From a virus, in IMG/VR virus record IMGVR_UViG_3300025806_000014, positions 19,617 through 83,616 of that record: DNA of 64,000 nucleotides; one strand, given 5' to 3'. Below the pieces are notes generated by a model. The model was not told the origin of the DNA. It was given only the letters and a program-made list of their open reading frames with translations, and ran no database searches. A program made the translations under genes and the position numbers. This document shows positions 6,151 through 58,479 of this stretch, piece by piece (the stretch's first letter is position 1; every line of letters begins with the position of its first letter).

Positions 6151-6703
6151 AGTCTATGTTAACTACGACATCTAATACATTATATCCAAATGTTATATCA
6201 AAGGTTTGAAATTCTATCGTGTTACTTGAAAAATTTAAATCTAATGCACCTACTTCAGAGATAAACATATCTTTTAATTGCACAGTAACAAATATAGTTC
6301 CATCAGCATCTAACATTTGAACGCCTACACCTTCTGGTAAATATGGATGTTTTCCACTTAACTTATAGTAATAGTCAAACATTTCAATTGCCATCCAATA
6401 ATTTACATAGCCATCAAATGCTTGCATAGTAACTGTCATTGTTTTATCAAATAATTGTTGCTTAGGTATACTTGATCTAAATGCACGTTGATTTCCTGGG
6501 TAATCTACTTGGGTAACTGCATCAAAAGAAGGTCCTGGTAAATTAAGAGATTGAATTCCATAATTCCAATAATCTATAGGTTCTTTGATTATTCCGCCAG
6601 GTATTCTTGTAAGAAAAGGTTTATACTTTTTAGCAATTGGCTCAGGTATAAAATTTCTAGGGAAATCAAATTTAAATTGATTATTTCTTGCGCTTAATAT
6701 CAT
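6149..6703 (-). CDS. Tail-tube-fold protein (gp19-like)
   Basis: 184 residues, slightly longer than T4 gp19 (163). The middle contains FDKTMTVTMQAFDGYVNYWMA and the end FQTFDITFGYNVLDV, matching the alternating strands and inter-ring hairpin of the contractile-tail tube fold. It lies at the end of the baseplate and fibre gene block rather than beside a sheath gene, which is not in the window. It could therefore be a tube-like baseplate component instead of the main tube. Confidence 0.55.
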   Translation of the reverse strand: MILSARNNQFKFDFPRNFIPEPIAKKYKPFLTRIPGGIIKEPIDYWNYGIQSLNLPGPSFDAVTQVDYPGNQRAFRSSIPKQQLFDKTMTVTMQAFDGYVNYWMAIEMFDYYYKLSGKHPYLPEGVGVQMLDADGTIFVTVQLKDMFISEVGALDLNFSSNTIEFQTFDITFGYNVLDVVVNID

Positions 6704-6712
6704 GATTAATTG

Positions 6713-9074: not shown

Positions 9075-9088
9075 TCTATTCTATTTAT

Positions 9089-9874: not shown

Positions 9875-10104
9875 TTTATATACTTCATTAACTTATTAGG
9901 TGTTACTTCAGTAGCTCCATATTTTTTTGCAATTTTATCAATAAACTTTTTTTCTTTAAGTTTCATTCCGTCTACTTCTTCAAATAGACCATCTCTTTTC
10001 TTTGCTAAACTCTCAATACTTTTTTGCATTAAGTCTAAGGAAAGTTGAATTTCCCTGTACCTACTTACATATCCATTAAGTTCTTTTATTTCTTTCTTTG
10101 TCAT
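9871..10104 (-). CDS. Small coiled-coil protein
   Basis: 77 residues, almost wholly helical and charged. It begins MTKKEIKELNGYVSRYREIQ and contains Lys/Glu heptads. It overlaps the spanin-like gene by 4 nt (ATGA), so the two are probably co-translated. It could be a partner of the spanin-like protein or a chaperone of the fibre encoded upstream. No family is recognised. Confidence 0.6.
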   Translation of the reverse strand: MTKKEIKELNGYVSRYREIQLSLDLMQKSIESLAKKRDGLFEEVDGMKLKEKKFIDKIAKKYGATEVTPNKLMKYIK

Positions 10105-10121
10105 TTTAAGTTAATTAATTA

Positions 10122-10550
10122 TTAATTTCCTCCTTTGTTATGTACCAATATTTCATTTGTATAATAGTTATGATTACCACTAACATTGGTTATATTGTAA
10201 ACAGTATATAAACCTTGCTCCTCTTTTGTAGATACTACTTTAGCCTTTTCTCCATTTAATTGATATACTTCAAAACCTTCTCTTAATTCAGCTGCATCTA
10301 TTAGACCTACATTTTCACCATCTATATGATAGAATGGGTGATGTTCAGTTACCTTAAGAGTAGATCCATTGTCAAAGTCTAATACAATTACCATACCTAC
10401 ATTTTCTATTACATCTAATCCACCTACGGTACCTACCTCAGTTGTTTGTTTTGATTCATTCCATGTTATTAACTCTTCACCTGAAATAATATCTTCAATA
10501 TTTTTTGTATCTCCATTCGCTAAAGCTATTTCAGTCCCGGCTACAAAACA
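10122..10550 (-). other. Hint (intein/hedgehog-type) domain within the fibre gene
   Basis: Residues 864-1005. It starts with Cys864 in SPGCFVAGTEIALANGD, the typical block A of a Hint domain. Block B contains TEHHPFYH. The end is ILVHNKGGN, giving the conserved His1000-Asn1001 pair followed by Lys rather than Cys, Ser or Thr. Only four residues follow the Asn. With no +1 nucleophile, normal intein splicing is not expected. Cleavage at Cys864 (thioester) or at Asn1001, as in bacterial intein-like or hedgehog proteins, is the plausible activity. Confidence 0.85.
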
Positions 10551-13139
10551 CCCTGGTGAATTATCATAACCACTAATTGTTATTCTATTATTGTTAGTAG
10601 AGCCAATAGAAGATGACAGTATAGACCAGCCATGTTGTACTAGTGTTGAGAATGCATTAGCATCAGCAAAATTTACCTCAGCACCCTGTTGTTGTACTTC
10701 TTTGCCATCCCAAAACATATCAATCATTTTATATCTACCGATCCCATCACCAGCATCAGTTGAATCTGTTGATACTGTTATTACTTGATAACCATCAATA
10801 ACCTGTGCAGAGCTACCACTACTGCTTGCTGCTGCCCACCAAGAGGTCCAGTTTCCTGTTGATGTAGGCGACTTAATTCTAAACATTGGTATCCTTAGAT
10901 CAACCGACCCATAATTGCTAACAGAAAGTGTACCTCCTTGTTTAGTAGCCGAGTTGTACGCTAATGCCTGTACGTATAGTTTAACTAATAACCTTTGCCC
11001 AGGGTATCCACCAATAGGAAAAGTAACTTTATAATCATAGCCCGGGTTCGATTGGCTAAATGCCGGCGACGGCTGAATAGATGGGTCAGCAGTAAAACCA
11101 TAACCCGGTCCAAAGTTAAGAGAAATATACGGAACTGTTAATTCTAGAGTTGTTGGCATTCCTAAAGAAGGATATTGACCACTAGGTGTTAGACTTTGTG
11201 GTGTTCCAATCTGTCGTGTATTCCACCCATAATTCATAGGAGCGGACTGAGTTGAGCCCGGTGAATAAATTACTGAAGGGGTGTTATTAATAGATGAGTT
11301 TCTACCAGTTGCTCTTTTTAATACCCACGGTGATGCAAATGCAATTTTATTTTTACTTGCAGTAAAGTATTCATTATTATTACCACTGTCTCTTACAGAA
11401 AATCCTAATGTATTATCCCACATAAAATTTATCGGAGCTACCGGACTCTGTGGTCCTTCGCTTCCCATTGCTATAGCTAATAAACCTGCATCTAAACCGG
11501 TAGCCGTTTGAGTTCCACCAGTCCATGCTTGTAACATTGCACCTGGGGCTAAATCAGTAACACCATTATTTCCAGTTAATTCAAATATATTAGTTGAACC
11601 GCTAGCATAACCAGTAGGATCTTTATATATAAGAGTCTGAAATGATTGTGGAGGGTATGATGCAATAAACCCTGCTATTGTTTGTGGTCCTACAAACCTT
11701 GTATGAGGTTGAGGAAGGTTCGTTGTAGGATTAACTCTTCCATAATCAATAACTATACTACAATTATTTAATGCAGTCTGAGTAGTTTTCTTTAAAATAA
11801 TTTGACTATTTCCTTGTATATAAATATCACCTCCTATTACAGTGTTAGGGGCCTGTGAAAGGTTTTCAATAACAATATCCCCAGTGTTTGAAGTACTAGA
11901 ATTAGATTGTTGAATATTAATATTTCCTGTACTGTTTGTATCTAATGAAATTCCACCACTTCCCGAGTTTAATGATATTGTACCTGCTGGATTTGAACCA
12001 GTTCTTGTATTTAATTTTAATTGACCACCTGAGTATAATTGTATATTTTGATTAGTTGAAGAAGTTAATTGAATTAAACCTGCTCTTATTTGTGCTACAC
12101 CTACTTGTGCTGTTTGTTGTAATACAACTGGAAAGCCTGCACCTAATTCCATAAGAGTTGAACCTGCAGTACCTGCTGTAGTTAAACTAAACTTATTTCC
12201 ACCTGGAGCGGAACCAACACCTACATTAATTGTAAAATCAGAATTCTCTCCGGAAAAATCCTGTGTAGTTCTTTGTCCTGTTTGAAATCCTATTGCTTTA
12301 CCTGCAGTAAAACTTTGAGACTTTGCAGGGGTATTAAGTTGAATTCCTATTAAATCATCTGAGGTAGTTGGTGTCGTAGCTACTTTAGGCACATCTAAAA
12401 TTAGACGGTCATCTTGTCCAATTTTAATATTGGATAAATTAGTCATTTCACTATTTACACCAGGCTGCCCTTGCCAATATTTTTCACCAGGAATTGCTCC
12501 TCCTCCTTGAAAAACAATAGCCTTACCACCAGAATCTTTTTGATGAATGAGTAAAGAAACATTATTACTCTGTGCACCAATTGCTATTTCATTAGGAATT
12601 ATATAAGCATTTGTTAAAGGAATACCAGTCAGAGCAGTAGTCGTCGTAACAGCACCACCAATCATAACAGTAGGAATTCCTTCATTAGTAGTGGTAGCAC
12701 CTTGCCCACTACCAATAGGACCATTATAAATTGCAGTTTCTTGGTTTATTGATATAGGTCCACCAAATAAATCTCCCATACCACCACCTGGTCCTTGTGG
12801 GCCCATTGGCCCTTCTAAATCAATAGTAGTCTGAGACCATGTTAATCCAGTATATTCCCAAACAACTCCATTAAATTGTAAATAATAATCACCTTCTAAT
12901 GGCGTACTAGTAGGTGGCACTGCAATTGGTGTGACCCCAGGTGCGGTTGTAGAAGTATCTTCATACCAGGTAGTTCCTTTAGGTCCTCTTCCACCAGCAG
13001 GCCCTACTGGTCCTATTGGCCCGGCTGGTCCTGCAGGCCCTCCACCATTAAGTAACAATTGGTCAAAATTAAAATTTGTTTTATCGACCAGTTGTGAAAT
13101 AGTATCTGATGCTATTATTTCTTGTATAGTGATTGGCAT
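10122..13139 (-). CDS. Collagen-stalk tail fibre ending in a Hint domain
   Basis: 1005 residues. N-terminal module (about 1-30, ITIQEIIASDTISQLVDKTN) resembles the start of the 214-residue protein at 24076. A short collagen-like Gly-x-y stretch follows (about 32-55), with a second short one near 110-118. Next come long beta-rich Thr/Asn/Ser-rich repeats typical of fibre shafts, and a beta domain around 640-860. Residues 864-1005 form a Hint autoprocessing domain (separate entry). The protein is probably a receptor-binding or decorating fibre that is proteolytically matured. The neighbour upstream is a 1584-residue structural protein. Confidence 0.8.
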   Translation of the reverse strand: MPITIQEIIASDTISQLVDKTNFNFDQLLLNGGGPAGPAGPIGPVGPAGGRGPKGTTWYEDTSTTAPGVTPIAVPPTSTPLEGDYYLQFNGVVWEYTGLTWSQTTIDLEGPMGPQGPGGGMGDLFGGPISINQETAIYNGPIGSGQGATTTNEGIPTVMIGGAVTTTTALTGIPLTNAYIIPNEIAIGAQSNNVSLLIHQKDSGGKAIVFQGGGAIPGEKYWQGQPGVNSEMTNLSNIKIGQDDRLILDVPKVATTPTTSDDLIGIQLNTPAKSQSFTAGKAIGFQTGQRTTQDFSGENSDFTINVGVGSAPGGNKFSLTTAGTAGSTLMELGAGFPVVLQQTAQVGVAQIRAGLIQLTSSTNQNIQLYSGGQLKLNTRTGSNPAGTISLNSGSGGISLDTNSTGNINIQQSNSSTSNTGDIVIENLSQAPNTVIGGDIYIQGNSQIILKKTTQTALNNCSIVIDYGRVNPTTNLPQPHTRFVGPQTIAGFIASYPPQSFQTLIYKDPTGYASGSTNIFELTGNNGVTDLAPGAMLQAWTGGTQTATGLDAGLLAIAMGSEGPQSPVAPINFMWDNTLGFSVRDSGNNNEYFTASKNKIAFASPWVLKRATGRNSSINNTPSVIYSPGSTQSAPMNYGWNTRQIGTPQSLTPSGQYPSLGMPTTLELTVPYISLNFGPGYGFTADPSIQPSPAFSQSNPGYDYKVTFPIGGYPGQRLLVKLYVQALAYNSATKQGGTLSVSNYGSVDLRIPMFRIKSPTSTGNWTSWWAAASSSGSSAQVIDGYQVITVSTDSTDAGDGIGRYKMIDMFWDGKEVQQQGAEVNFADANAFSTLVQHGWSILSSSIGSTNNNRITISGYDNSPGCFVAGTEIALANGDTKNIEDIISGEELITWNESKQTTEVGTVGGLDVIENVGMVIVLDFDNGSTLKVTEHHPFYHIDGENVGLIDAAELREGFEVYQLNGEKAKVVSTKEEQGLYTVYNITNVSGNHNYYTNEILVHNKGGN

Positions 13140-13149
13140 TTCTTTTTTA

Positions 13150-16100
13150 TTATTTTTTAACTATCGTGACACTGAACCCATATGATTCAGAGAAACCTGT
13201 TCTTTTATTATATATTAGCCTTAAATCAAATGGATTTGTATTTAAGGTTTTAGATGCTACATTATTATTAATAGTTAACCCTTTACTAATCTTTTCCTCA
13301 TTAGTTAATTCGGCTGTAGTATATGTAGATCCACCTTTAGTTCTACTTGCTAATGTATAAAAATCAACCTTTTCTATTTTATATAACTTTAAAATATTTT
13401 CTTTTATGTATTGATTTACATCATCATCTAATGTTTCTAAATCACCATAACCAAATTCATCTTTTATATAAAGTAAAAACTGCTCTTTTATTGGAGTAAA
13501 CAAATATTCCATTAATCTTTTTTGATTAAACAAATAAAATGTTTCTACTGGTGCAGATTGTTTTTTCTTAATAGCTCTAGTATTTAAAACGCCTTCTGAC
13601 TTAATAGACCTTTTACTGATTGACACTGCAGGTTGATCCTGGTACATAAATGTTCCACTTATTAAACTCGGTTGTCTAATAGCGGCTTTTATAAAAGGGT
13701 CAGGTTTAAATGTTTCTAATACAATCGTTTCTGGAACTTTAAGATATTTGGATCCAAAAAATGATTTTCTTTCAAACATTGATCTTGTACCTATAACTTT
13801 TTCTATTGCTGATTTATCAATACTCTTTATAAAATAAGAAGGTTCCCAGTTAGAAGAAAACATATAAAAATCTCTATAATCAATTCCTATTTCATTAATA
13901 AGAGGATATAAACTATTAAACGCGCTTTCTCTAGATAATTCTAAAACAGTAGATGGATCTTGTTCATTTACTTTATGATAAAAGAAATTTTGAATTTGTC
14001 CAAATTCTGGATCGGAACTATTAAACTGTGCATTCTTATATTTACATAACTCCATTACTTTTATTTTATATGCTGCATCTGGAATAAGTACACTACCTGT
14101 CCCACCTGTAACTTCTTCAAAATCTAAATTTTGATAAGGGTCTCTAAATGATAATAAAGGTAATGCGTAAGGTTCATAATAACCAGCATGCCTAGCTATA
14201 GGAGTTATTCTTGGTGTCTTTTGCAAAGATAAATCATATCCTATTACATCAGCCAAGTTAAAGGCTGTTGGTTTTGCAGGATCTGGTAATACACCAACAT
14301 AAATAGATTTTAAAATATCAGACTGTGCGCGTAATTCAATACCAAAGGTTTGCGCTAAACTTCCGTCTTTATTTTTAATTTGGCTACCATCGGCTGCAAT
14401 TGTTTCATATATAATGCTAGGATTACCTTGATTAACAGAATCAAAAATATTACCGAAAGCAGCAGCAGTTAACCTATTATCAAATTGTTGATAACCACCT
14501 TGGCTAATGTCATATTGAGCCGATCTTAACGCGTTGTTTGGTGGAGATCCAATAGGAAGGCTAACGTTAGTTGTAACACCACCTTCAGTTTTAGTAACGG
14601 TAGTAGCCGTAAGTGTGCTATTATCAATTACACCTTGGATTCCTTTAATTTCAAAACTTTGCTGCGCCGGTGTACCGATTCCAATCCTCCATTTAATACT
14701 TCCGTATGAACCATCTTCTAATATTCTAACATCATTAACTAATTCAGGTAATGTACCGTCAAGGGCTGGCTGAAACCTAATTGTAAAGATACCATTTGAA
14801 TCTTGTGTAGAAGTAGCAAATGAAACTGCCCCTCTTAGACTTGTTTTCTCATAATCATATTTACCATTACTTAATATTCTAGGGGAACAATCACTAAGAG
14901 TTACATATGAACTATTTAAAGAATATAAAGTTGTTCTATCTATAATAGAAGTACTATTAATATCTGGTTGCAAACATTTATCTATGTAAGCCATAGAAAT
15001 TAACATAACAACAGTTTTCCATTTTTCATTTTTTATAAATTTAACTTGAAATTCTGGTATGTTAGGATCTGGTGTTCTACCATCTGAGTTTAAATTAGGA
15101 ACTAACATTACCGAAAATCTATAATCATTAAATTCACCATCTCTGACATAAGATAATGATCTTGCATTAAAATCAGCTTTCTCTGTACCTATTGCTTTAT
15201 TTTTTGCTATAATTCTAACCCCTCTTAAAAATGTTTCTGAAAAATTCTTTTCATCACCACCATTTAATCTACCATACCTTAACTGCCTATCTATTTCAGT
15301 AATGCCTCTGGTTGTAAACTTTTGAACTACAAAGTAATCATTAAAATAATCTTTAATAACATTTTGAAATGTTCCTGGGACAAATGCTTGCCCTGTTGCG
15401 AAATTAGCTTGTGTGTTATCTCTAGGCGCCTTATCTATATAACTCCAGGATTTTTCAATAGCATCTTTTGTAAAATAATTTGGAAATTCTGATAAGTAAT
15501 ACCATTCATGAGTATAACCACTAGCTTCTTGGATCTTATCCCATTTAGATGGTGCAAAATTATTTAAGCCAAATGCCTCGTTTGCATTTAGTCTATATGG
15601 ATGGTTTCTAACATCTTTACCATTATTAACCCATGCCCATTTATTAATATATGGAGCAATTCTTGAAATAGCAGCTTGAGAAGTTAAAAAGTTTTCCTCT
15701 AATCTAACATATTCACTTTTAATATATTGTTCATCAGGGTTTTGTTTTTCGGCATCACCTACTAAACCGATAAGGTTATAAAAACCACCATTATCATAAA
15801 AGCTTCTAATTTCAGGATTACTACTTACACCTTCATATTTAAGTGGCACTGCTCCTGCGACTGTTTGATTATATTCATTATATTCAAAATCTAATTCGCC
15901 TTCTTGGCTATATAAAGTACTATAAAAATCAAAATCAAAATCTTTAACTTCAAAAAATGAAAATCTACCAAACGAAGGTTTGTAATCTGAGTATAAGGCC
16001 ACTTGCCCAGATCGCGTTACCATTATTTGATTATCATTACATGTAATAATTGCGTACTTATCAATATCAGTATATCCAATAATTTCTCGTAAGCCATTAT

Positions 16101-17904
16101 AAATAGGTTCATCAGTATAAGGAACCCAGTCACCTATAACCGCATAATTACCAGTAGTTTGTACATAATCACCTTTGGTAAATCTATCTTGGTCACCTAA
16201 TGTAACTTTTAATAAACTATTTTTTACATCATTTCCACCAACAAAGTGTCCATCCAATTTTACTTCAGATGTTAAAGGATATGTTTCTGTTTGATCAAAA
16301 AATTCAGGATATTGATTATCTAATTTAAAATTTAATCTATTAAACCTAGATCCACTAAACCTTGATTTAACATAAACTGTACTATCATTACAGGTAGCAA
16401 CAAAAAATCTATCATTTTCACTAATACCTTTATTAATTGCAGATGCTATAGATTGAGCTACTTCTTGTATGGTTCCGTTTGGATTAAAGAATCGTTCAAA
16501 GGATTTGCCAGGCGTTGGTGCTAATGTACTATTGGCAAAAATTTGACCAGTAAATTCGCTACCATCATAAAAAGCAATAGAGCTACCATCTTGTACATTG
16601 TCTAATATCTTAATATACATTTGCGCTACACCTGCACGACTAATAATACTTGCATTAGCAAAAGTATCAGGCTCCTTATATCCAGTAAATAAAGATATGT
16701 CTACTTCAGTATCAAATAATCTTATCTGATCTTTATCCCAAGTTGATCCTTTTTTAATAGTATGAAAATCATCTTCTTTATCTTTAACATAAAATATAGA
16801 CTCTACTTCATTAACTCTCTCCGGTGTTGGTAAGCCTGTTATAACTTCAGTTTTATCAGGATCTAAATAAAGTAATATACCATTTTCATTTGTTAACTTA
16901 AATGGAGTATTTAAAAATTGGGAAACTTCTGTTATAGAAGTTATAGTAGGCTGTTGTGATTTCTCAATATTTGTTCCTTTGTAAAAAGCCTCACCGGATA
17001 TATCAAACTTACCTTCTTCAATATCATTAACATACATACCAAAATATCTATTAATAGAATAATCTTTAGCAGTAGGATCGTCAAACAAAAATTCCATGTT
17101 TAAAAGATTTGCTAAAAGTATGCCATTATTCTGAAATCCTTGTGTAAATAAGTATTCATCTTGTATAATAGTTGAATCTTTTGTAACCATATCTTCATAT
17201 GCAAAATTACCTGAACTTGTAAAACCTCCATTACTATATGATATTCCATTCCACAACATAGGCTCATCCCTTCTCCAAGTCATATTTAATGGAACTTCTG
17301 GAAAGTTTTCTTGATTTCTATAATTTCTAATATAAGACCCTAATGCAGTACCTTGTGTTAAATCAAAAGTTTTAATTGCTGTGCAATTCTCCAAAACATT
17401 TTTATTAAAATTAACTGAGGTTTGCGCATTCGCCGTATCGGCATTTTCTGTTGCGGCTCTAAAGTTGTTGACAGCTGCTGGATTATCTAATCTAAAAATT
17501 ACAAAATAATTTGGTATTTGTTCATTTAACCAAAGTGGTGCAAAAGTACCTAGGCTTTGGGAATAGCTTTCTGATGCTACAGATCTGGTACCAGCACAAT
17601 AAAACATTTCATATTGATTACGATAATTGGAAAGTACAGCATCATCCTCATATTCTTGGAATATCTCATATGCGGCTTCTTTAGGAAACTTGCCATTATC
17701 AAAAAATTTAAAAACATCCTGGTCATAAGTACTAGTACCGTCGACTTTAAATGCTTTAAATTTCTGAGATGATAGTCGAGTATTAGCACTAAATGATTCT
17801 AGATAGATGTCTATACCATCAGACACAATCTTAACATTACCCGTTAACTTAGGGTTTGTTCTAATTAAACTATAGGATGCTTTATCGAGCAGGTTTTCAG
17901 CCAT
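13150..17904 (-). CDS. Very large virion structural protein
   Basis: 1584 residues. It opens MAENLLDKASYSLIRTNPKL and is rich in Asn, Asp, Tyr and Phe with predicted beta-sandwich stretches. No signal peptide, transmembrane segment or catalytic motif is seen. It lies in the row of very large proteins downstream of gp6, where T4 encodes wedge and fibre-attachment proteins (gp7-gp10), so a peripheral baseplate or fibre-network role is inferred. A TATATTAG-type box inside its 3' end (about 13206-13216) might serve the next gene. Confidence 0.65.
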   Translation of the reverse strand: MAENLLDKASYSLIRTNPKLTGNVKIVSDGIDIYLESFSANTRLSSQKFKAFKVDGTSTYDQDVFKFFDNGKFPKEAAYEIFQEYEDDAVLSNYRNQYEMFYCAGTRSVASESYSQSLGTFAPLWLNEQIPNYFVIFRLDNPAAVNNFRAATENADTANAQTSVNFNKNVLENCTAIKTFDLTQGTALGSYIRNYRNQENFPEVPLNMTWRRDEPMLWNGISYSNGGFTSSGNFAYEDMVTKDSTIIQDEYLFTQGFQNNGILLANLLNMEFLFDDPTAKDYSINRYFGMYVNDIEEGKFDISGEAFYKGTNIEKSQQPTITSITEVSQFLNTPFKLTNENGILLYLDPDKTEVITGLPTPERVNEVESIFYVKDKEDDFHTIKKGSTWDKDQIRLFDTEVDISLFTGYKEPDTFANASIISRAGVAQMYIKILDNVQDGSSIAFYDGSEFTGQIFANSTLAPTPGKSFERFFNPNGTIQEVAQSIASAINKGISENDRFFVATCNDSTVYVKSRFSGSRFNRLNFKLDNQYPEFFDQTETYPLTSEVKLDGHFVGGNDVKNSLLKVTLGDQDRFTKGDYVQTTGNYAVIGDWVPYTDEPIYNGLREIIGYTDIDKYAIITCNDNQIMVTRSGQVALYSDYKPSFGRFSFFEVKDFDFDFYSTLYSQEGELDFEYNEYNQTVAGAVPLKYEGVSSNPEIRSFYDNGGFYNLIGLVGDAEKQNPDEQYIKSEYVRLEENFLTSQAAISRIAPYINKWAWVNNGKDVRNHPYRLNANEAFGLNNFAPSKWDKIQEASGYTHEWYYLSEFPNYFTKDAIEKSWSYIDKAPRDNTQANFATGQAFVPGTFQNVIKDYFNDYFVVQKFTTRGITEIDRQLRYGRLNGGDEKNFSETFLRGVRIIAKNKAIGTEKADFNARSLSYVRDGEFNDYRFSVMLVPNLNSDGRTPDPNIPEFQVKFIKNEKWKTVVMLISMAYIDKCLQPDINSTSIIDRTTLYSLNSSYVTLSDCSPRILSNGKYDYEKTSLRGAVSFATSTQDSNGIFTIRFQPALDGTLPELVNDVRILEDGSYGSIKWRIGIGTPAQQSFEIKGIQGVIDNSTLTATTVTKTEGGVTTNVSLPIGSPPNNALRSAQYDISQGGYQQFDNRLTAAAFGNIFDSVNQGNPSIIYETIAADGSQIKNKDGSLAQTFGIELRAQSDILKSIYVGVLPDPAKPTAFNLADVIGYDLSLQKTPRITPIARHAGYYEPYALPLLSFRDPYQNLDFEEVTGGTGSVLIPDAAYKIKVMELCKYKNAQFNSSDPEFGQIQNFFYHKVNEQDPSTVLELSRESAFNSLYPLINEIGIDYRDFYMFSSNWEPSYFIKSIDKSAIEKVIGTRSMFERKSFFGSKYLKVPETIVLETFKPDPFIKAAIRQPSLISGTFMYQDQPAVSISKRSIKSEGVLNTRAIKKKQSAPVETFYLFNQKRLMEYLFTPIKEQFLLYIKDEFGYGDLETLDDDVNQYIKENILKLYKIEKVDFYTLASRTKGGSTYTTAELTNEEKISKGLTINNNVASKTLNTNPFDLRLIYNKRTGFSESYGFSVTIVKK

Positions 17905-17920
17905 GTATCTTTCACTTTTT

Positions 17921-17930
17921 TTATATATTC
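17921..17930 (-). promoter_or_regulatory. Late-promoter-like box AATATATAAA
   Basis: The minus strand reads GAATATATAAAAAA, 17 nt upstream of the ATG at 17904. Confidence 0.55.
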
Positions 17931-17955
17931 ACCAAAAGATATAGCAATGGTTAAA

Positions 17956-20900
17956 TTACAGGTCTGCTTCCCCAATGAAAGTATTAGCTCCACTTCTTCC
18001 TCCTCCGCCGCCACCTGACCTAGTACTTACGGCAGTTTGTGTTAATGAAGGTCTTAATGCTGATACAACTTTTTCTAAATCACTTAAGCCTTTAGTTACT
18101 GTTGCTTTAGGGAATACATCTATACTTAATCTATCAGATCTATAATTAGCAGAAACTTCAATATCAAATTGAACTACATCTGAATTATTTGGATATAAAT
18201 CAAACCCAATTCTTTTAGTATATGTTAAGTTAACAGTAGAACCTGTTTCATCACCACCAATATTACCTAAACCTGTACCTGATGTAGTTCCAAAATAATC
18301 AGTCATTCTATATTGGAATACCAAAGGAACACTAACAGCATTCTGTTGGCCAAACTGTATTACTTCTCTAGATTGTATAGAATCTCCATCTACTTGAATA
18401 TTCAAATGATTATCAGAAGATATAAACAGATAAGATCCACAAGACTGCCTTCCTAAAGTATATTGGTCAAAACCTTCAAATGAATTTTTAGCATTTCTAG
18501 AATAACCACCAGTAATATAACCAGCAGCAGTAGTATCCCACAGATTTACTAAAGCAGCCGACGATAATGATGGGCTAGGCTGAAGTACTTGTCCAGTATC
18601 AAAAGTAAGCCCTGCGTATGGCGCGCCTGTTGCGGTTGACAAATTATACAAGTCGGTAACATTTTCATTTAAATAAATTCCTTGTTGTTTTCCGTAAGGA
18701 GAATCAGAAGTTAACGGTGAAAACTTAGACTGTCTAAATAATACAGCAGCTGTACCATTACCGGCAACAGTACAATCTATTCCTCCACCTGGAATAATTA
18801 CTGGCAATGTATTAATATCACCAGTTAAAGATTCATAAGCAGCTTTATATGCAGTGTAATTAGTTAAAAACGGGTGTGCAATTGAAACTGATACTAAATT
18901 ATCAGCAGGTGTTTGCGAACCTGGATAAGAAGCTGTTGTAGTAGGAAGCCCAGTATCTAAAAATCCACCACCCCAAATAAATTGTGTTGTCGGATCAGAA
19001 ACTGTAGTTGCAGCTGGTGCATTATAAAAATTTTCTAATGTATCTAAATTAAAAGTATAACCATTTGTTGGTAAATCTGCATTAAGATAACTATAAAAAT
19101 TACCTTCGGCAGATACATCAGCAAATCTACTATAAATAAACTGATTCTTATTTTGTGTAGACTGAAATGGTGGTTGAGAAACCATTTGCCCATACTTTGT
19201 GCTGGCAGTAACATCAGGATTTGTTAAAAGAATTGGTGATAGATCATATTTTCTAATCGTATTATAATCAGCATCATCACCCCTGTATGTAGCCCTATCA
19301 TTTGACTGATTATCTTTACTATTATCTAGCCATGAATATGTTGCTGGTAAAATAACCGAACCATTTATTATACTTCCAGTGTTAGTTGGCGAATATAAGC
19401 CAGGGTTTTCAGATTGTTTTACCATCCTACTTCTATTACCAGTAATTCTAGCTATTAACTGTAAAGCAGTTTGTGATCTATTTGCAATGTTAATAAAATA
19501 AGTCTTTGAAACAATAGCACCTCTAGGATCATCCAATCCATCAACTTCTTGTGAATAGAATCCAGCAAATACTTTTGTAGTTGCATTTCTTCTTAAATTA
19601 AATGTATTACCAGTATCATCAACTAAAGTAGTTACTAGTTCACCTTGTGCACTGCTTAGTATTTCTGAAAACAGATCCAATTGATTTTGCATATCTTGTA
19701 ATTTTGTAAACAAATCAATTGGTGTTTGATTCTCGGATAGAAAACCAGAAGCAATTACTGGAGATGAATGAGCAAAATATGTTTCATTAGCAGTAAAAGA
19801 ACTGCTTAAGTGAGTAGGTAACCCAATAGATTCTAAATTTTCATTTAATGAAACTAGCGCTAAGTCTTCTTGGTTTTGAGTCAATATAGATTCAAGAGCA
19901 CTATCAGAACTTAAATCAGCTGGAAATTCTACTCTTATAGCTGTACTCCATTCACTTTCTAATGGATTAGCTGGCCACCCTGCTTCAGAAATAGATTTAA
20001 CTTGTATTTCTACTTGTTCACCTTTTCTAATTGGAATGTCTAATTGATTAATATTTACTGCATCTGCATTATCATCATTAATAGCAACCCATTCATATAA
20101 ACCAGTTATAGTATTTTTAACCCTAGGTCTTAATACACTATCCACTATTACATAATTAGAAAATGCACCTTGGCTAGTACCAGACCCGTCAGTATAAGTA
20201 AATTGATCTACTGCATTAGCAGCACCGTCCGACGAAAGATACCTGTAACGATATTTAAATTTTATTATATCCTGTACACCTGTTTCAGGAGCTGATTTTT
20301 CTTGTGGCATTGCCCAGAATCCTCTTACTCTATATTTAGGAGTTATACTACTTACAGAATTATCAGATGCAAAAGAATCAATTTCGGTAACTACAGATGA
20401 ATATAATTTAGCCTGTGATGCTCTTTCAGTAATTAAACCTTGTAACGCATTTTTATCTGAATCCCTTTCAACTTCAGTAGTATAATTAGTTGTTTGTATT
20501 TTTGCTCTACTTTGAGAAATAGCAACATCTAATTCACTAAGTGTTGCTTGTATTGTACTCTTTTGATTATTTAAGTCTTTAAGCTGAACAATAGAATCTG
20601 AATTACTAACCTGGCCATTTATTAAAGCCACACTAAAATCCTCAGAAGTTAAAACTGGAGCATTAGGTGTTAAACCTTCCCTACTTGTTGGCATCTTGTC
20701 TTGTGCAAACGATAAAAGATATCTACCAAAATCAACAGCATTCTGTTGATAATAATCTGCTAAAGTCTGCTGAGTACCAGCAGCATTAATAGTTGTTAAA
20801 TTATTTGTATAAAATCCACTACCCGGTGACCAATTAACAGCAGGTATTTTTGAATCTGGATCAATAGGTTTAATAAAGGTTACACATCTTTCATTAAATC

Positions 20901-43787: not shown

Positions 43788-46700
43788 TTAAGATTTGTAA
43801 ACTTGGTAAGTCATAGAACATGGTTGGTTAAAGTAACTTGCTTCACCACTTAAATTTTCAACAGACCATCCAAAGTAAATTAAATCACCAACAGTCATTT
43901 GTAAAGCTGCATCACATACCATTTCATGTGCAAATATACATGTACTACCATTTGCTCCTGTTTGAACCTGGTGAGATGCTGTATTAGTTGTTCCTGGGAA
44001 AGGTATTAATGTTTGTGTTGCATTTGCAGGATCCCATGTACCATTTACATTAATATAAGATGCCGTTGTTCGTAAAGCAGATAAGTTGGTAACTGTTCCA
44101 ACTGCTGTTCTATTAAACCATAATACTCCACGAATGGTAATTGTATCACCAATTCCAAAGTTTTGATTTACTCTATAACCTGCATTCATATTATAAGTAT
44201 TTAGAGCACCTGAACCAGATAAAACTATAGCTGTTTGGTTTTGACTAAATCCTGGGCTTGATGGTAAAGATGCACCGGTGCTTTGACCGAAGCTATAAAG
44301 ACCTGCACCATATTCAGGAATAAATGCCCTATATTGTCTATTTCCTGCCCAGAGTAATGTTTCACCACTACCACTACCACCAGAACCTGTTGCTCCAGTA
44401 AGCCCAGTTGGTCCTTGTGATCCACTTGCTCCAGTAAATCCAGAAGATCCTGCCGAACCAGCAAAACTCCATCCTATAATTGGTTTATCAAAAGATGTAA
44501 TACCAGCTCCACCTATGTAAATAAATTTAGATAATACTATACCACCATTAATACCATTTGTAACTGTAACATTTGTTAATGTCGTATGATAATAATTAAC
44601 ATTTTCAGGTGCCTCATATTCATGAATTTGGAAATATACCTTTCCAGTTGCACCAACACCAGACTGTGAAGTCTTCCACGAAGAATAGACTGTATTGGAA
44701 ACTTCATAATCTATTGTAGTACCACCACTAGAAGGATCTGTACCTTGCGCAGATAAGCTAATGTCACCACCGCTAGTTATCCAACTACCAGTACTTACAA
44801 CTGCTTTACCTTGTTGTGGTGTTGCAGTAGAAACGCTTGCACTATTATAAGCAGTAACATATCCTCCATAATCTCCACCAGCACCAGTAGCTCCTATAAA
44901 TCCAGTACCCGATCCACCTTGAGGACCAGCAGCTCCGCTTGCTCCTTGATTACCTATTGCACCACCAACTCCCGTTGCACCTTGATTACCTATTGCACCA
45001 CCAACTCCGCTTGCACCTTGTATACCTAAAGCTCCTTGAGCTCCGCTTGCACCTTGTAATCCAATTGCTCCTTGATTACCTATTGCACCGGTTGATCCAA
45101 CAAAACCATTTTCGCCTTTTTCTCCAGTTGCACCTTGTAATCCAATTGCACCTGTAGCTCCATTAGATCCAGTTGATCCAACAAAACCATTTTCGCCTTT
45201 TTCTCCAGTCGCACCTTGTAATCCAATTGCACCTGTAGCTCCATTAGATCCAGTTGCACCAACAAAACCATTTTCGCCTTTTTCTCCAGTTGCACCTTGT
45301 AATCCAATTGCACCTTGGTTACCTATTGCACCAGTTGATCCAACAAAACCATTTTCGCCTTTTTCTCCAGTTGCACCTTGTAATCCAATTGCACCTTGGT
45401 TACCTATTGCACCAGTTGATCCAACAAAACCATTTTCACCTTTCTCTCCTTGTGTTCCTGTTGCTCCTTGTGTTCCTGTTGCTCCTGCACTACCAGATTG
45501 TCCTGTTGCACCAGTAGCTCCAGTGGCCCCATTAAATCCAGTTGCTCCAATAAAACCAGTTGCTCCATTAAATCCAGTTGCACCAGTGGCTCCTTGGAAT
45601 GAAGTACCATAAGCAGTAAATTCTAAAACAAAATCTATACCTTGACCCCAGTTAGCAGTATAAGTTAATGGAGTAATTGTAAAGTCATATACATTACCTA
45701 CTAAAGCTACAGCAGTTATTACACCATGTACAATTTGTTGATTATTATTGGCAGATAGTATAACAGCACCAAATCCAGTTGATGCTTGTCCTGTATCATC
45801 AAAAGTATTAAGGAATGTAGTTTGATCTAATCCTAATGAATCTGTTTTATTAATATACAGACTTGTGGTTGCAGCATCATAATAGAATTTACCAGAAGGT
45901 GGGGTAGTTACACCAACTACTCCTGATTGCCAAGGTAAACCATTTTTTGGACCGATTGCTCCAGTTGCTCCCGTTGCACCAAGTCCACCAGCGGCACCTT
46001 GAGCACCACTTGCACCAGCAGCACCTTGAGCTCCAGTTGCACCAATTCCTCCACCTCCACCAGAAACAGTAGTCCATTTTAACGTGGCTGTACTTCCAGC
46101 TACAGATCCTATTTCTAAAACTTGATTTTGAGTACCTATTGCTAAAGGCCAAACATAATTAATATTATTAGCTAAAGTAGTAGGTGCTTTAAAAGAAGTA
46201 TAATTAGTTCCATCATCATCATTAAAAATCAATATACCAGTTCGACCGCTACCATTACCTGCTAAAACAATTTGACCTTCTGAATCAGTAGCACCACCAC
46301 CAACTGTAAATTGTGGTGTAAGGCCTACACCAATTTGTTCAAACTTAAATAAATTTTTAGTACCACCATTAGTGTTTATAAATGTAAGAGGGTTATTTGT
46401 ACCACTACCATAAAAATCTAAAGTCCTAGGTTCTTCTACAGTTAAATCTGTATTTCCAATGTTAACACTAGCTGGTGGGTTTGCAGCATTAATTGTTATT
46501 TCATCTGTTGCTTCATTTACACTGAATGTAATATTTGTACCAGGTAATAAATCAACATCACTACTTGCAACACCGTCACTTAATGCAATACTTACACCTC
46601 CACTGGTTAAACTAATAGCATTTAAATTGTATGCAGCAAGAGCAGCATTTTCCCATTGGCCTGTTGATGTATTATATACTAAGAGTTGATCATTTTGAAC

Positions 46701-48707
46701 ATCAGTAATAGTTACATCAGTAAGATCATTTAATGAAGTAGCACCACCGCCTCCTCCACCACCTGCTTCAACATCTACAGTTCCTCTATATAAATGTCCG
46801 TTAGCAGAATTAATCCATAATGTTCTATCAGAAATAGTTCCACCACTCACATCATTACAAAGCGGTCTGTTTGCAAAAGTTGTAGATGGAAGAACTAATC
46901 CTCCTTTATCAATATTAACACAACCTACAAAATAACCAGCCCATGTACCACTATCAGCAACCAAGCCTGTTAAAATAGTAGACGATGTAGCGTCAGTTTG
47001 TGTATCTATAACATTAGAATATAATCCTACTCTCTGAGGATTTGTTCCAGTACCTGTAAATCCAATTATTTGACCAACATTAAGTGCTAGAGTTCCACCA
47101 ACTTTATTATCAAGTGAAATATTATTTCCAATATATTTAGAAGCAAAACCACCTGTTGTACTTTCTGTTTGTAATTGTTGAGCATAATAAATTTCAGCTC
47201 CTCTATCCATCCATTGATATATGTTAACACCTTCAGGTATAGTAGGTGTATTATAAGTCATACGTAAACCGTACCCATCCGTTAATGAAGTGTTGGCAGC
47301 AAAATCATGTTGAGAATTTATAATTGATGATGTTGCTAATACTGTATTTTGTTCACTTACACCAGTTAAAAGGTGTTCACCTCTAAGTCTAACCCTTACA
47401 CTTAAATCACCACTTTGCTCTGTGTAAGATGTGAGAGTATATCTGCTACTAGATTCAAATCTTCCAGTTGTACTTGAGGCTGCTGCATTCACTAAAGGTA
47501 TTCTATAACCAACAGCTGTTGTCTGTAAAGAACTAGTTGCAACATTAGGTACATATAGTTCATTGTTTAGAGATATGCTTAATGCATCTACTGTTAAACC
47601 GCCTAATCCAGTACTTCCTATATTAATACCAAAAGATTTATCAGTTCCGTAAATACCAGATGTTGCTTGGATAACACTATTTAATGCATATGTCTGAGAA
47701 GCATTTCCAGTAGGAGATGAATTTCTTAATTGTAATTGATGAGTAGTTGCAGCATTATCAAAATGAATACCTGTTCCAGTATCACCTACTCTATTAAATT
47801 GTAATTGTCCTGCACTATTATTAAGACTAACAGTTCGATTAGCAGCACCAATACTTCCGTCATTAGTATAAAGATTAACTTGTCCTAAAGAACCTATTGC
47901 TATCGGTGTCCATAAACCTGCACCATTATTCCATTGTAAAATATCATTAGGGTTAGGTGCATTTGTTGATACATCAGATAACATACTAATCAATGGTGCT
48001 CCACTATTTAATTGAGCCAAGTCAACTAAACCTTCATTAAAATTATACTCAATATTTTTTTGTCCAGAATTTGTACTTATAGATAATGCAGCACCGGTTC
48101 CAGTATTCGTTGACTGAAATCCGTAAAATTGTAAATTAACACCAACCTTACCAGAATAAACATCCTGATGGCCAGCTCCTAATCCAATATTTTCACCAAC
48201 ATTTACCTCACCTGGATTTGATGCTAGTGTGTTTATTACTTTTATTGTTTTAGAAGATAGATTATATTGCAGCTGCATCCCTTGCCCGGCAATAAAATTA
48301 AAAGTATCATTAGGAGTAGTTGATTGTATTAATGCATCATTACCAGATTGTAGTGCCCCAGATGCGGATGTAGAATTAACATTGATTTTACCAAAGCCAT
48401 TAGCTCCTTGTATATTAATGTTACCTGAACCTATACCTCCAATCATATCCCACTGTGCAGTATTAAATACACCTTGGGTAGTTCTAACATTTGCTCTCCA
48501 CCATGCTAATACTTGATCTTCACCTGTAGTCGCAGGATCATCTACAATAACTGGGTGGTATACAATGTTTCCTATTTCATATGTCCTATCATTCTCCCAA
48601 GGGTTAGCCACCATTTTAAAATTAGTATCTACCTCAGCATTAGTTAGCTCTCTTTTTATCTCTGTTCTAAAAAGAATATATTCTTGTAGGTTAAATGACG
48701 TTGCCAT
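43788..48707 (-). CDS. Giant collagen-repeat tail fibre
   Basis: 1639 residues. The N-terminal about 90 residues contain WENDRTYEIGNIVYHP and WWRANVRTTQG, the aromatic pattern of CBM5/12-like carbohydrate-binding modules. A long beta-rich shaft follows (about 100-900), then collagen-like Gly-x-y runs (a short one at about 885-915; a long one at about 1030-1280 with tandem 27-residue units), a globular region, another short Gly-x-y run, and a C-terminal beta domain of about 150 residues, probably the receptor-binding tip. It is likely a trimeric long tail fibre. Confidence 0.8.
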   Translation of the reverse strand: MATSFNLQEYILFRTEIKRELTNAEVDTNFKMVANPWENDRTYEIGNIVYHPVIVDDPATTGEDQVLAWWRANVRTTQGVFNTAQWDMIGGIGSGNINIQGANGFGKINVNSTSASGALQSGNDALIQSTTPNDTFNFIAGQGMQLQYNLSSKTIKVINTLASNPGEVNVGENIGLGAGHQDVYSGKVGVNLQFYGFQSTNTGTGAALSISTNSGQKNIEYNFNEGLVDLAQLNSGAPLISMLSDVSTNAPNPNDILQWNNGAGLWTPIAIGSLGQVNLYTNDGSIGAANRTVSLNNSAGQLQFNRVGDTGTGIHFDNAATTHQLQLRNSSPTGNASQTYALNSVIQATSGIYGTDKSFGINIGSTGLGGLTVDALSISLNNELYVPNVATSSLQTTAVGYRIPLVNAAASSTTGRFESSSRYTLTSYTEQSGDLSVRVRLRGEHLLTGVSEQNTVLATSSIINSQHDFAANTSLTDGYGLRMTYNTPTIPEGVNIYQWMDRGAEIYYAQQLQTESTTGGFASKYIGNNISLDNKVGGTLALNVGQIIGFTGTGTNPQRVGLYSNVIDTQTDATSSTILTGLVADSGTWAGYFVGCVNIDKGGLVLPSTTFANRPLCNDVSGGTISDRTLWINSANGHLYRGTVDVEAGGGGGGGATSLNDLTDVTITDVQNDQLLVYNTSTGQWENAALAAYNLNAISLTSGGVSIALSDGVASSDVDLLPGTNITFSVNEATDEITINAANPPASVNIGNTDLTVEEPRTLDFYGSGTNNPLTFINTNGGTKNLFKFEQIGVGLTPQFTVGGGATDSEGQIVLAGNGSGRTGILIFNDDDGTNYTSFKAPTTLANNINYVWPLAIGTQNQVLEIGSVAGSTATLKWTTVSGGGGGIGATGAQGAAGASGAQGAAGGLGATGATGAIGPKNGLPWQSGVVGVTTPPSGKFYYDAATTSLYINKTDSLGLDQTTFLNTFDDTGQASTGFGAVILSANNNQQIVHGVITAVALVGNVYDFTITPLTYTANWGQGIDFVLEFTAYGTSFQGATGATGFNGATGFIGATGFNGATGATGATGQSGSAGATGTQGATGTQGEKGENGFVGSTGAIGNQGAIGLQGATGEKGENGFVGSTGAIGNQGAIGLQGATGEKGENGFVGATGSNGATGAIGLQGATGEKGENGFVGSTGSNGATGAIGLQGATGEKGENGFVGSTGAIGNQGAIGLQGASGAQGALGIQGASGVGGAIGNQGATGVGGAIGNQGASGAAGPQGGSGTGFIGATGAGGDYGGYVTAYNSASVSTATPQQGKAVVSTGSWITSGGDISLSAQGTDPSSGGTTIDYEVSNTVYSSWKTSQSGVGATGKVYFQIHEYEAPENVNYYHTTLTNVTVTNGINGGIVLSKFIYIGGAGITSFDKPIIGWSFAGSAGSSGFTGASGSQGPTGLTGATGSGGSGSGETLLWAGNRQYRAFIPEYGAGLYSFGQSTGASLPSSPGFSQNQTAIVLSGSGALNTYNMNAGYRVNQNFGIGDTITIRGVLWFNRTAVGTVTNLSALRTTASYINVNGTWDPANATQTLIPFPGTTNTASHQVQTGANGSTCIFAHEMVCDAALQMTVGDLIYFGWSVENLSGEASYFNQPCSMTYQVYKS
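45091..45495 (-). repeat. Five tandem 81-bp repeats encoding collagen units
   Basis: The block beginning GTTGATCCAACAAAACCATT on the plus strand recurs at about 45091, 45172, 45253, 45334 and 45415, exactly 81 nt apart. Each unit encodes 27 residues (nine Gly-x-y triplets, including GEKGENGFV). Copies are nearly identical, with swapped internal triplets (STGSNGATG versus STGAIGNQG). They sit in a wider Gly-x-y region at about 44880-45600. This is a substrate for slippage or recombination that would change stalk length. Confidence 0.9.
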
Positions 48708-55804: not shown

Positions 55805-56139
55805 TGATAAGTAATTTTGATAGCTTTTTAAATGAAAAGAATTTCCAGGTTGTAATTCCTCATAAAGAAAAAGGTTCTGTTGTAGCCAACTTTAAAGCTA
55901 TGCCTGGATCTACAAGAGATACTGCAGGTAAACTTATTCTAATGGCTAGAGATTCTAAAGCTTTAGATCAATTGGAAGGATTACCTAATTTTCATATACA
56001 GCAAAATTTAGAAGATGCTCTTAATAAAGAATTTAAAAGAGAAGGAATAATTGAATTTAGAACTGATGCCGGATATCCTGGTGCAGGTTATGCATTTGAT
56101 TTAATTCTTGATAAAATAGTAAAAAGATTAAACAGATAA
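55804..56139 (+). CDS. Small protein with NEK-type leader
   Basis: 111 residues. It overlaps the upstream stop (TAATG). It starts MISNFDSFLNEKNFQVV, again a short aromatic leader ending in NE. The body is alpha/beta (VVANFKAMPGSTRDTAGKLI, FRTDAGYPGAGYAFDL). It overlaps the next gene's start by 1 nt. Not recognised; probably functions with its operon neighbours. Confidence 0.65.
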   Translation: MISNFDSFLNEKNFQVVIPHKEKGSVVANFKAMPGSTRDTAGKLILMARDSKALDQLEGLPNFHIQQNLEDALNKEFKREGIIEFRTDAGYPGAGYAFDLILDKIVKRLNR

Positions 56140-56369
56140 TGGACCCACAAGAAACTAAAGATGAAAATGCAATAAGACATTACAAAGGGAGCGTTGCTCA
56201 GTTTAAACAAATGTTTGATGATTTAGCGGATGGCAAAAATACCAACGCTTATGATACTCCAGAATACCAAGGATATGATGGTGTACATCCAGTAAGAGGT
56301 GAAAGAAAAAGTCCACACTGGGAAGAGACTAATGAAAACCACATCCCATTATTTAAGAATTTTAAATAA
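56139..56369 (+). CDS. Small hydrophilic protein
   Basis: 76 residues, Asp/Glu/His-rich, ending HIPLFKNFK. It shares a base with the upstream stop. It is the last gene of the plus-strand operon, directly before a terminator hairpin. No family is recognised. Confidence 0.6.
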   Translation: MDPQETKDENAIRHYKGSVAQFKQMFDDLADGKNTNAYDTPEYQGYDGVHPVRGERKSPHWEETNENHIPLFKNFK

Positions 56370-56373
56370 ACTA

Positions 56374-56403
56374 AAAAAGACCACTCAATGAGTGGCCTTT
56401 TAG
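56374..56403. terminator. Bidirectional intrinsic terminator
   Basis: The hairpin CCACTC-AAT-GAGTGG (56381-56395) is preceded by an A-run and followed by CCTTTTAG. A-tract and T-tract on both sides suit termination of both the plus-strand operon and the converging minus-strand gene. Confidence 0.8.
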
Positions 56404-56418
56404 TCTTATAGCTTTTTA

Positions 56419-56946
56419 TTATTTAAGCTTAATATATTTCTTTCTATTTTGAATATACATTTCTCCTATTGGAGCTTCTATTAATTGTCTACCTAATACA
56501 TTAAATATTCTGTAGTCTTGTTTTTCTGTATTGTACAACTCTTCTATACCAACAGTACCACCCATAGACATTCTCATCCAAGCCTGACCATCCCATACTT
56601 GATTAAAACAACAATTTAGTGTATCAACATAACCTAATGAATCTGTTAATGTGTAACTAATACAAGTTGTAATTGTATCATAAGGCATTCCTGTAAGTGG
56701 ATTGTAATTAAATGCAATATGTGAACAAGCATTACTGAAACAACTATCTTCACCCAACATTGTTTGACCACCATAAGTGACAGCATATATAGGAGCCATC
56801 ATCGGTAAACTATTTCCAGTTACTGGAATTGCAATTTCAAATTGGTATTGCGAACCAGTTGTGTAAGTCATGTTTGAATCACATAACGTTTGTGCTTGTA
56901 ATTGTAGGCCAAGCGAAACCATTACCATCATTAAAATCTTCTTCAT
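56419..56946 (-). CDS. Secreted protein with a T9SS-type C-terminal sorting signal
   Basis: 175 residues. The N-terminal signal peptide is MKKILMMVMVSLGLQLQAQ with likely cleavage after AQ. The mature part has six or more Cys (LCDSNM, EDSCFSNACSH, NCCFNQ) suggesting disulphides, hence export. The last 45 residues (DYRIFNVLGRQLIEAP, then GEMYIQNRKKYIKLK) match the Bacteroidota type IX secretion type A sorting domain pattern: Y-x-I-x-x-x-L-G-R, then G-x-Y-I, then a Lys-rich end. It would be displayed or released at the host surface. Function unknown; surface-masking or superinfection exclusion are possibilities. Confidence 0.7.
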   Translation of the reverse strand: MKKILMMVMVSLGLQLQAQTLCDSNMTYTTGSQYQFEIAIPVTGNSLPMMAPIYAVTYGGQTMLGEDSCFSNACSHIAFNYNPLTGMPYDTITTCISYTLTDSLGYVDTLNCCFNQVWDGQAWMRMSMGGTVGIEELYNTEKQDYRIFNVLGRQLIEAPIGEMYIQNRKKYIKLK

Positions 56947-57016
56947 CTTCTTTTTTGTTTAATTATATAGAGAGCTTAATTTTTGTTTAGGTTCAACCCT
57001 CGAGAACCTTATAACT

Positions 57017-57418
57017 TTAAGAATAAGTTATTTCTATATTTCCACCAGTATGATCCATTACCCATATGTTTTCTCTTATCATTTTTTGGGCATGTAAGAT
57101 TTCTGCTTGATATTCATTCCAATCTTCTTCAGCTTTAATCTGATCTTTTAAATCTTTAGCTATTTTAAGAGCTTCATCAACTGCATATTGTCCAACATCA
57201 CAACCTGCGGTCTTTTTAGATTTAGGCTCTACTAGTCTTAATTCAGATCCTATAAATTCTGCAATAAGTTTTGAGCTAGCATAAATTTCTTTTACTGCTT
57301 TTCTGTCTGGCATTAAGTCATTTTCACTTTCCATAATTTTTGCTATGTATGCCTTTGGGTAATCAACATCGTATTCAGTTTCTTTCCCATTCATATATAC
57401 TACTTTTACTATTACCAT
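57017..57418 (-). CDS. Hypothetical cytoplasmic protein
   Basis: 133 residues. It begins MVIVKVVYMNGKETEYDVDY and has mixed alpha/beta content with a helical centre (ALKIAKDLKDQIKAEEDWNE). It lies 3 nt after the muramidase-like gene in the same direction. Not recognised. Confidence 0.6.
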   Translation of the reverse strand: MVIVKVVYMNGKETEYDVDYPKAYIAKIMESENDLMPDRKAVKEIYASSKLIAEFIGSELRLVEPKSKKTAGCDVGQYAVDEALKIAKDLKDQIKAEEDWNEYQAEILHAQKMIRENIWVMDHTGGNIEITYS

Positions 57419-57421: not shown

Positions 57422-57937
57422 TTATAAATTTAATGTTACATAATTTTGAACTTTCTTCCAATAATGAGCAGTTGCAGATTTCTTGTATCCTTTAGGCCCA
57501 CCGTTCCAATTCCTAGCCATCTTTTCATAGGAACTTTTTAAGTGATAAGCATCAGCCCAGATATTAAACATCTCAATTGATAAATCACCACTCTTTCTAT
57601 CACTATTTTTAAATCTTTTATCTAATCCTTGTTTTCTTAGTATCCTATTTACTTCTCTAACCATAATAGGTCTGATTTGTAAAAGTCCTACTGAAGGTGT
57701 ACCTAAATTAATATCTCCAATTGTTGCAGGATTACCACCGCTTTCTACAAAAGCCATAGCTTCTATTAACTCTTCTCGGTTATCTATCTTTCCGTTGATG
57801 AGGTTAACTTCTTCCTCCATAATTTCATTAAACATTTCAACCTCCTCCTTTAAAACATCTTGTACATGACTTTGTGCAATCTCCTGTGAACCTGTCATAG
57901 TTACTAAAAACGTTGATACTAATAAAACATTTTTCAT
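57422..57937 (-). CDS. Secreted lysozyme-like muramidase (SLT fold)
   Basis: I choose the ATG at 57937 (MKNVLLVSTFLVTMTGSQEI), giving 171 residues. It starts with a signal peptide and overlaps the upstream stop as TAATG. Upstream in-frame Met codons would lie inside the previous gene. The core shows LIEAMAFVESGGNPATIGD with the catalytic Glu of the lytic transglycosylase fold, then SVGLLQIRP and a NWNGGPKGYKKS segment. It would cut peptidoglycan in the periplasm and may be the endolysin. The spike protein lacks a lysozyme domain. Confidence 0.8.
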   Translation of the reverse strand: MKNVLLVSTFLVTMTGSQEIAQSHVQDVLKEEVEMFNEIMEEEVNLINGKIDNREELIEAMAFVESGGNPATIGDINLGTPSVGLLQIRPIMVREVNRILRKQGLDKRFKNSDRKSGDLSIEMFNIWADAYHLKSSYEKMARNWNGGPKGYKKSATAHYWKKVQNYVTLNL

Positions 57938-58479
57938 TATCTGTATATTTTTGAGTTTTTCCAATTTCTAAATGCATGAGTTACTTCTTCATCTAAAGTT
58001 TCATCTCTAACAACCTCTTTCTTTTTTGGTAAGGGTAATAATGTATCTATTATTGTTTTAAGATTATAAAGATGCTTAGAATTAATTAACTTACTATCAT
58101 ATTGCTGTTGTGCATATTTTAAACACTTTTCGCGATTTTCTAAATCAATTAATTCTCCTACTCTTTTTAATGCTCTTTGGTAATCTTCTTCAGTTGGTAC
58201 TCTCCATACTGCAACATTACCAAGTGATGTAATTTTAGTTGCACCGCCGCTTCCACCTTTCATACCTGCCATGATTCCAAAACCGCTTCTCTTAGCAAGT
58301 TTGTTTATCTTATCAGCAGATTCTTTATCCATGATTTGAATTGTATTTCCTGTTTTATGATAGATAACATCAACACAACTAACTGCCTCAGCAGTTGAGC
58401 AGTTAACACAAACTTTAGTTTTAGGTAAAACTTTTAGTCTTGCAGCATGAATCTCTTCTTTACATTTAATACAATTCAT
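57937..58479 (-). CDS. DksA/TraR-type zinc-finger protein
   Basis: 180 residues. The N-terminus has CIKCKEEIHAARLKV followed by KVCVNC, the C-x2-C, 17-residue spacer, C-x2-C finger of DksA/TraR proteins. A Gly-rich IMAGMKGGSGGATK stretch follows, and the C-terminal half is helical. DksA proteins bind the RNA polymerase secondary channel. Here the finger is N-terminal and no long coiled coil with the acidic tip precedes it, so RNAP action is uncertain. The stop overlaps the muramidase start, and it shares a base with the upstream gene. Confidence 0.65.
   Translation of the reverse strand: MNCIKCKEEIHAARLKVLPKTKVCVNCSTAEAVSCVDVIYHKTGNTIQIMDKESADKINKLAKRSGFGIMAGMKGGSGGATKITSLGNVAVWRVPTEEDYQRALKRVGELIDLENREKCLKYAQQQYDSKLINSKHLYNLKTIIDTLLPLPKKKEVVRDETLDEEVTHAFRNWKNSKIYR

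Follow-up and report, generated by a model that had tools for sequence, protein, structure and literature searches.

The window analysed here, a stretch of 64,000 nucleotides (positions 19,617 to 83,616 of IMG/VR virus record IMGVR_UViG_3300025806_000014), carries at 56419..56946 on the minus strand a gene for a protein of 175 residues, which we refer to as the cargo gene. The virus record is incomplete and covers 83.6 kb of phage sequence; baseplate, primase and tail genes lie in the window, and the baseplate-wedge protein is closest to those of uncultured huge phages and of phages of Prevotella, Tenacibaculum and other hosts, mostly Bacteroidota. We find relatives of the 175-residue protein encoded in 27 IMG/VR viral loci, and the gene is syntenic across related phage contigs. 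When the window gene is compared with seven relatives that share its type of central domain (core type A), dN/dS in the core is 0.11-0.25. Given the 27 related loci and this constraint, the open reading frame did not arise by chance; it is a real, working phage gene under purifying selection. GenBank phages gave no homologue of the family by tblastn, and GTDB genomes gave no relative when queried with the whole protein; searching with the C-terminal tail instead recovered eight MAG loci. The absence of a lysis-like or enzymatic motif, claimed in an earlier note made from the letters of this DNA, is borne out, as searches of Pfam, NCBIfam, PHROGs and PADLOC turned up neither an enzyme nor a lysis family. 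Among the other genes of the phage, we observed several putative fibre proteins of great length that contain collagen-like GXX repeats (window 43788-48707, minus strand, and G000 1-19616), and a probable tail-fibre protein of 1,005 residues (window 10122-13139, minus strand) that carries at its end an autoprocessing domain of the Hint (intein/Hedgehog) type (PF07591), which is unusual for a tail fibre.

An accessory cassette with exchangeable parts

The cargo gene occupies a slot between a convergent right-hand neighbour (56139..56369, plus strand), which is conserved beside the slot whether or not the cargo gene is present, and a conserved left-hand neighbour (57017..57418, minus strand). Related phages carry the gene in this one slot, adjoining homologues of 56139-56369 and, in closer relatives, homologues of 57017-57418 as well. 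Many relatives have no cargo gene at the slot, and there the two neighbours directly adjoin; in several of them they lie a few bases apart or overlap slightly. The cargo gene is thus an accessory cassette, and it is accompanied by a conserved leader and a hairpin terminator. The 5' leader (56947..57011, minus strand) contains an inverted repeat, AGGTTC...GAACCT, and an AT-rich stretch, TATATAAT, as a possible promoter. It is near-invariant in nine phages while the sequence further upstream varies, and it could be a promoter, an operator or an RNA element; no compensatory changes were found in its fold. On the other side, between the convergent genes, a hairpin at 56375..56404 with T-runs on both sides is a probable bidirectional terminator, and six relatives with the cargo gene in this slot have the hairpin next to it as well.

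Comparison of alleles shows that the gene is itself a composite. Relative to the window, locus L027 has flanking genes that are 38-95% identical, and its DNA is 92% identical in the signal and 84% in the tail but only 58% in the core, which is of a second type (core type B). Conversely, L003, L007 and L022 have core DNA that is 84-89% identical to the window and a tail of another type (67-69%). These patterns indicate that signal, core and tail are exchanged separately. Two further observations concern the edges of the gene. In L018 (576-1001; the same contig as L241), the cargo allele stops exactly at GIEEL, the tail and terminator are missing and the convergent neighbour begins 7 bases away, which may reflect a real deletion or an assembly join. 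Directly before the cargo gene in L016, L017, L019, L020, L050, L060 and L073 lies a sequence resembling the 3' half of a tRNA (GTTGGTTCGAATCCAACC). We rejected a tRNA reading of this T-arm-like end, as ARAGORN calls none in these seven loci and Rfam calls none in L016, L019, L050 and L073.

Anatomy of the protein

In an AlphaFold2 model built from 28 family sequences, a signal helix (residues 3-13) precedes a beta sandwich that forms the core (27-126); the linker (128-143) is disordered and leads to an end of three short strands (147-173). With a mean pLDDT of 67 and core strands mostly at 55-83, the core model is of moderate quality; the model of core type B (L027) has the same four-part plan with a better pLDDT (80). 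The N-terminus, residues 1-19 (MKKILMMVMVSLGLQLQAQ; 56890..56946, minus strand), is conserved in the family and resembles a signal peptide. The maximum hydropathy over 11 residues is 2.6 within residues 1-30 versus 1.3 in the remainder, and this simple hydropathy criterion together with the AlphaFold2 helix, rather than SignalP, is the basis of our call, which agrees with the signal peptide put forward earlier. The cysteines that the earlier note had described as paired number six (C22, C69, C74, C95, C112 and C113), five of them invariant or almost so across the family. We dropped a lipoprotein or spanin reading, given that a leucine precedes C22, so that there is no lipobox, and that a second transmembrane segment is absent.

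The Cys-rich core (residues 20-127; 56566..56889, minus strand) is modelled as an Ig/FN3-like beta sandwich. Its top structural matches are FN3 and GH2 Ig-like domains, the best with Z of 8.3 and an rmsd of 2.8 over 88 residues, and in VIA-align searches with both core types common Ig/FN3-like arrangements dominate, with Z at most 8.3. In Foldseek neither core matches the PDB below E 1e-3. With matches only to such common arrangements, the fold gives no function. The core is followed by a flexible linker (residues 128-143; 56518..56565, minus strand) with pLDDT of about 35, below 50, which contains TVGI, the counterpart of a PT/GI cleavage motif (PMC11969387).

A predicted short C-terminal signal of the T9SS type

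The extreme C-terminus, 43 residues counted from G133 (residues 133-175; 56422..56550, minus strand), resembles a sorting signal of the type IX secretion system (T9SS), as judged from alignments A2 and A3, the AlphaFold2 model and an association with SprA described below. It contains motif B (YRIFNVLGRQL, with FNVLGR at its centre), motif D (IGEMYI) and a basic motif E (NRKKYIKLK), and after the linker the model places three strands at 147-149, 163-166 and 169-173. The earlier note had assigned a C-terminal segment of 45 residues to the type A class and proposed searching it against the TIGR04183 HMM. The T9SS-like tail of about 43 residues stands, whereas the class does not: in NCBIfam the window protein and 14 relatives have no match to TIGR04183, even at E 10, and TIGR04183 is absent from the whole 83.6-kb contig. 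Pfam is likewise silent, PF18962 matching neither the window protein nor its relatives at E 10, and no other library model matches the tail. The note had counted a missing HMM match together with a missing signal peptide against its reading; the TIGR04183 match is indeed missing, and the signal-like N-terminus is present.

TIGR04183 fails on this tail because it models long C-terminal domains (CTDs). In Prevotella intermedia, 48 short CTDs have been predicted, five of them with mapped cleavage sites; such a CTD is 40-51 residues long and combines a PT/GI cleavage motif with motifs B, D and E, a flexible linker leading into a three-stranded sheet (PMC11969387). TVGI, FNVLGR, GEMYI and NRKKYIKLK in the window protein correspond to the linker and the three motifs. 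Motif D has one residue more, GxxYI in place of the usual GxYI, and the longer form is also seen in several of the bacterial tails found here. Aligned by hhalign to TIGR04183 tails from host genomes, the A3 profile gives 88.7% probability, anchored on motif B; against long CTDs motif B aligns well and motifs D and E poorly. By its sequence features, then, the tail is a predicted short T9SS signal, different from the TIGR04183 class.

It could be argued that such a tail is a non-working relic or mimic and that the protein remains periplasmic, where it might, for instance, aid lysis beside the product of the nearby lytic-transglycosylase-like gene at 57422-57964. The weak SLT similarity of that neighbour and the lack of a curated HMM match for the tail would fit this, but tail dN/dS is 0.05-0.32 where computable and motifs B, D and E are retained across very different cores. 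Furthermore, L016 and L017 have no transglycosylase homologue within the locus, the cargo gene there having other neighbours, and the protein has neither a transmembrane segment besides the signal nor a usable lipobox. We therefore consider a periplasmic relic improbable.

The tail is tied to T9SS genomes

To follow the tail beyond the family we used the A3 profile, which has 28 rows (25 phage tails and 3 MAG tails, the latter from none of the Bacteroidales genomes examined here). We searched 41 genomes from a single Bacteroidales family with A3 at a threshold of E 1e-3; 18 of them have matches, at most 26 in any one genome. Of the 41, 23 encode SprA, the translocon of the T9SS. Tail matches occur in 17 of these 23 versus one of the 18 genomes without SprA (Fisher p 1.7e-5, a guide only as the genomes are related). 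Six SprA-bearing genomes have no match, and the single genome with matches but no SprA (G182, possibly incomplete) has 26. Every bacterial match that was inspected reaches the C-terminal end of its reading frame. Of the eight MAGs that carry a homologue or the tail, seven have SprA, and these seven have 5-84 TIGR04183 matches each. The tie to SprA was measured in bacterial genomes. In a phylum sample of 148 genomes, tail matches at E 1e-4 were confined to one MAG (G025), which indicates a clade-limited distribution for the close form of the tail. The profile can also be used to find short-CTD cargo in bacteria.

Among 1,059 non-redundant viral reading frames of at least 90 residues, 59 bear the tail at E 1e-4; since the loci were partly chosen by the tail, these 59 are not a random sample. 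In every case the tail lies at the C-terminus, within 6 residues of the protein end, and the combined B/D/E pattern (GxYI or GxxYI allowed) fits 57 of them. A signal-like N-terminus is found in 58 of the 59, compared with 25% of all reading frames. This last figure bears on another reading, in which the protein is a structural component of the virion, an Ig-like decoration domain whose N-terminus is incidental. Ig-like folds are common on phage virions and the modelled core is Ig/FN3-like; nevertheless, the near-universal signal, the absence of the gene from many close relatives and the existence of bacterial chromosomal homologues make a virion role very improbable.

In Flavobacteriales MAGs, those homologues belong to the ordinary cargo encoded on the chromosome. 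G025 (SprA and 33 TIGR04183 matches) carries a homologue with core type B among chromosomal genes with T9SS tails, including one for a PAD_porph protein, and a nearby protein of 381 residues repeats a domain like core type A. In G023 (SprA and 46 TIGR04183 matches), the homologue lies among housekeeping genes. From these two MAGs, the family looks like host surface cargo that was acquired by phages or exchanged with them.

Other T9SS cargo in related phages

Related phages also encode proteins with T9SS signals of the standard kind. TIGR04183 scores over its cut-off in 6 of the 18 phage records examined. One of these is a close relative, G001, with a copy 90% identical to the window protein; it encodes a 245-residue cohesin + Por_Secre_tail protein, and a relative of the latter with 50.6% identity occurs in the isolated Flavobacterium phage immuto (MW353176). 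The other five records encode secreted proteins of 1,127-1,321 residues ending in a long CTD (L370 319-3708, L372 422-4210, L373 256-4221, L374 421-3804 and L375 255-3710), and PF18962 was confirmed for the two that were scanned. The L370 protein, the sole one searched, is partially similar to a virion structural protein of a cyanophage.

The short tail, for its part, is fused to small Ig-like, thioredoxin-like (L354-L356, L358, L062, L079 and L359) and Omp28-like (L046) proteins. The secreted thioredoxin- and Omp28-like genes include L062 3026-4330, L046 321-2093, L355 3482-4156 and the one in L358, and some lie beside, or share a contig with, a small Ig-like cargo gene.

Export model and proposed role

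Based on these data, we propose that the gene probably encodes a phage-borne cargo protein exported by the T9SS of the host. What the model draws on directly is sequence, anatomy, synteny, selection and the statistical association between the tail and genomes with a T9SS. Both the Bacteroidota host and the T9SS export suggested by the earlier note gain support from computation, through the co-occurrence with SprA, the short-CTD anatomy, the TIGR04183 cargo of sister phages and the homologues in SprA-bearing Flavobacteriales MAGs. During infection the protein would cross the inner membrane by Sec, and its Cys-rich Ig-like domain would fold in the periplasm, probably with disulfides. The 43-residue signal would then be recognised by the host shuttle and translocon (PorV/SprA), and the protein would pass the outer membrane, probably being cut in the TVGI linker, to end on the surface of the infected cell or be released.

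The benefit to the phage is the least certain part of this explanation and is inferred more weakly than export. Our first choice, offered tentatively, is that the surface of the infected cell is changed so that competing phages do not adsorb, or that a receptor is masked; an Ig-like core that is exchanged between phages, with signal and tail retained, fits a binding surface that varies. In the main rival, the protein is likewise exported by the T9SS but serves provisioning or the community, with released Ig-like or redox-active proteins altering adhesion, aggregation or nutrient capture of infected cells. The tail-bearing thioredoxin-fold and Omp28-like proteins of sister phages, some in tandem or on the same contig with the small cargo, speak for it, as does the finding that the homologues are ordinary chromosomal cargo. 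However, no thioredoxin-like cargo was found within the 83.6 kb of the window phage (an incomplete record), and core exchange at one slot fits a binding role better, which leaves provisioning a somewhat unlikely reading.

Beyond the single gene, it is conceivable that many marine phages whose Bacteroidota hosts bear a T9SS use a kit of T9SS cargo to coat or arm the outside of infected cells. Such a kit would comprise exchangeable Ig-like domains, thioredoxin- and Omp28-like proteins and proteins of 1,100-1,300 residues, and would rely on a minimal signal that current models miss, with signal and tail as fixed ends between which cores are swapped. Phages have rarely been shown to use an outer-membrane secretion machine of the host for their own proteins, and here a whole family appears, from its sequences, to do so. 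As the signal is missed by standard HMMs, counts of phage-driven changes of Bacteroidota surfaces are probably too low.

Comparison with known systems

The window protein is built like the short-CTD cargo of P. intermedia (PMC11969387): a signal peptide and a folded domain are followed by a flexible linker of the PT/GI type and by an end with three strands and motifs B, D and E. It differs in being phage-borne, in the GxxYI form of motif D and in coming from marine phage contigs. We found little literature on phage sorting domains beyond Cryophage and the crAss-like phages. The crAss-like gut phages also are Bacteroidota phages whose proteins carry T9SS sorting domains, there with BACON repeats (PMC6949934); unlike the window protein, that case concerns gut phages and BACON domains and was not reported as a short signal. 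Flavobacterium phage immuto has the cohesin + Por_Secre_tail protein related to that of G001, a domain different from that of the window protein, and tblastn found no homologue of the short-CTD family in it. A phage precedent is Cryophage, in which phage genes with T9SS signals (an endoglucanase, a GH39 protein and a PA14-domain protein with 'type A' domains) vary among otherwise similar phages and superinfection exclusion was proposed (PMC7468147). The present family shares with Cryophage a phage-encoded T9SS cargo that varies between similar phages; in contrast, its protein is small, non-enzymatic and Ig-like, the signal is short and missed by standard HMMs, and the family is found in many phages. 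Phage-encoded T9SS cargo is already known from Cryophage, and it is the short-signal form that is new.
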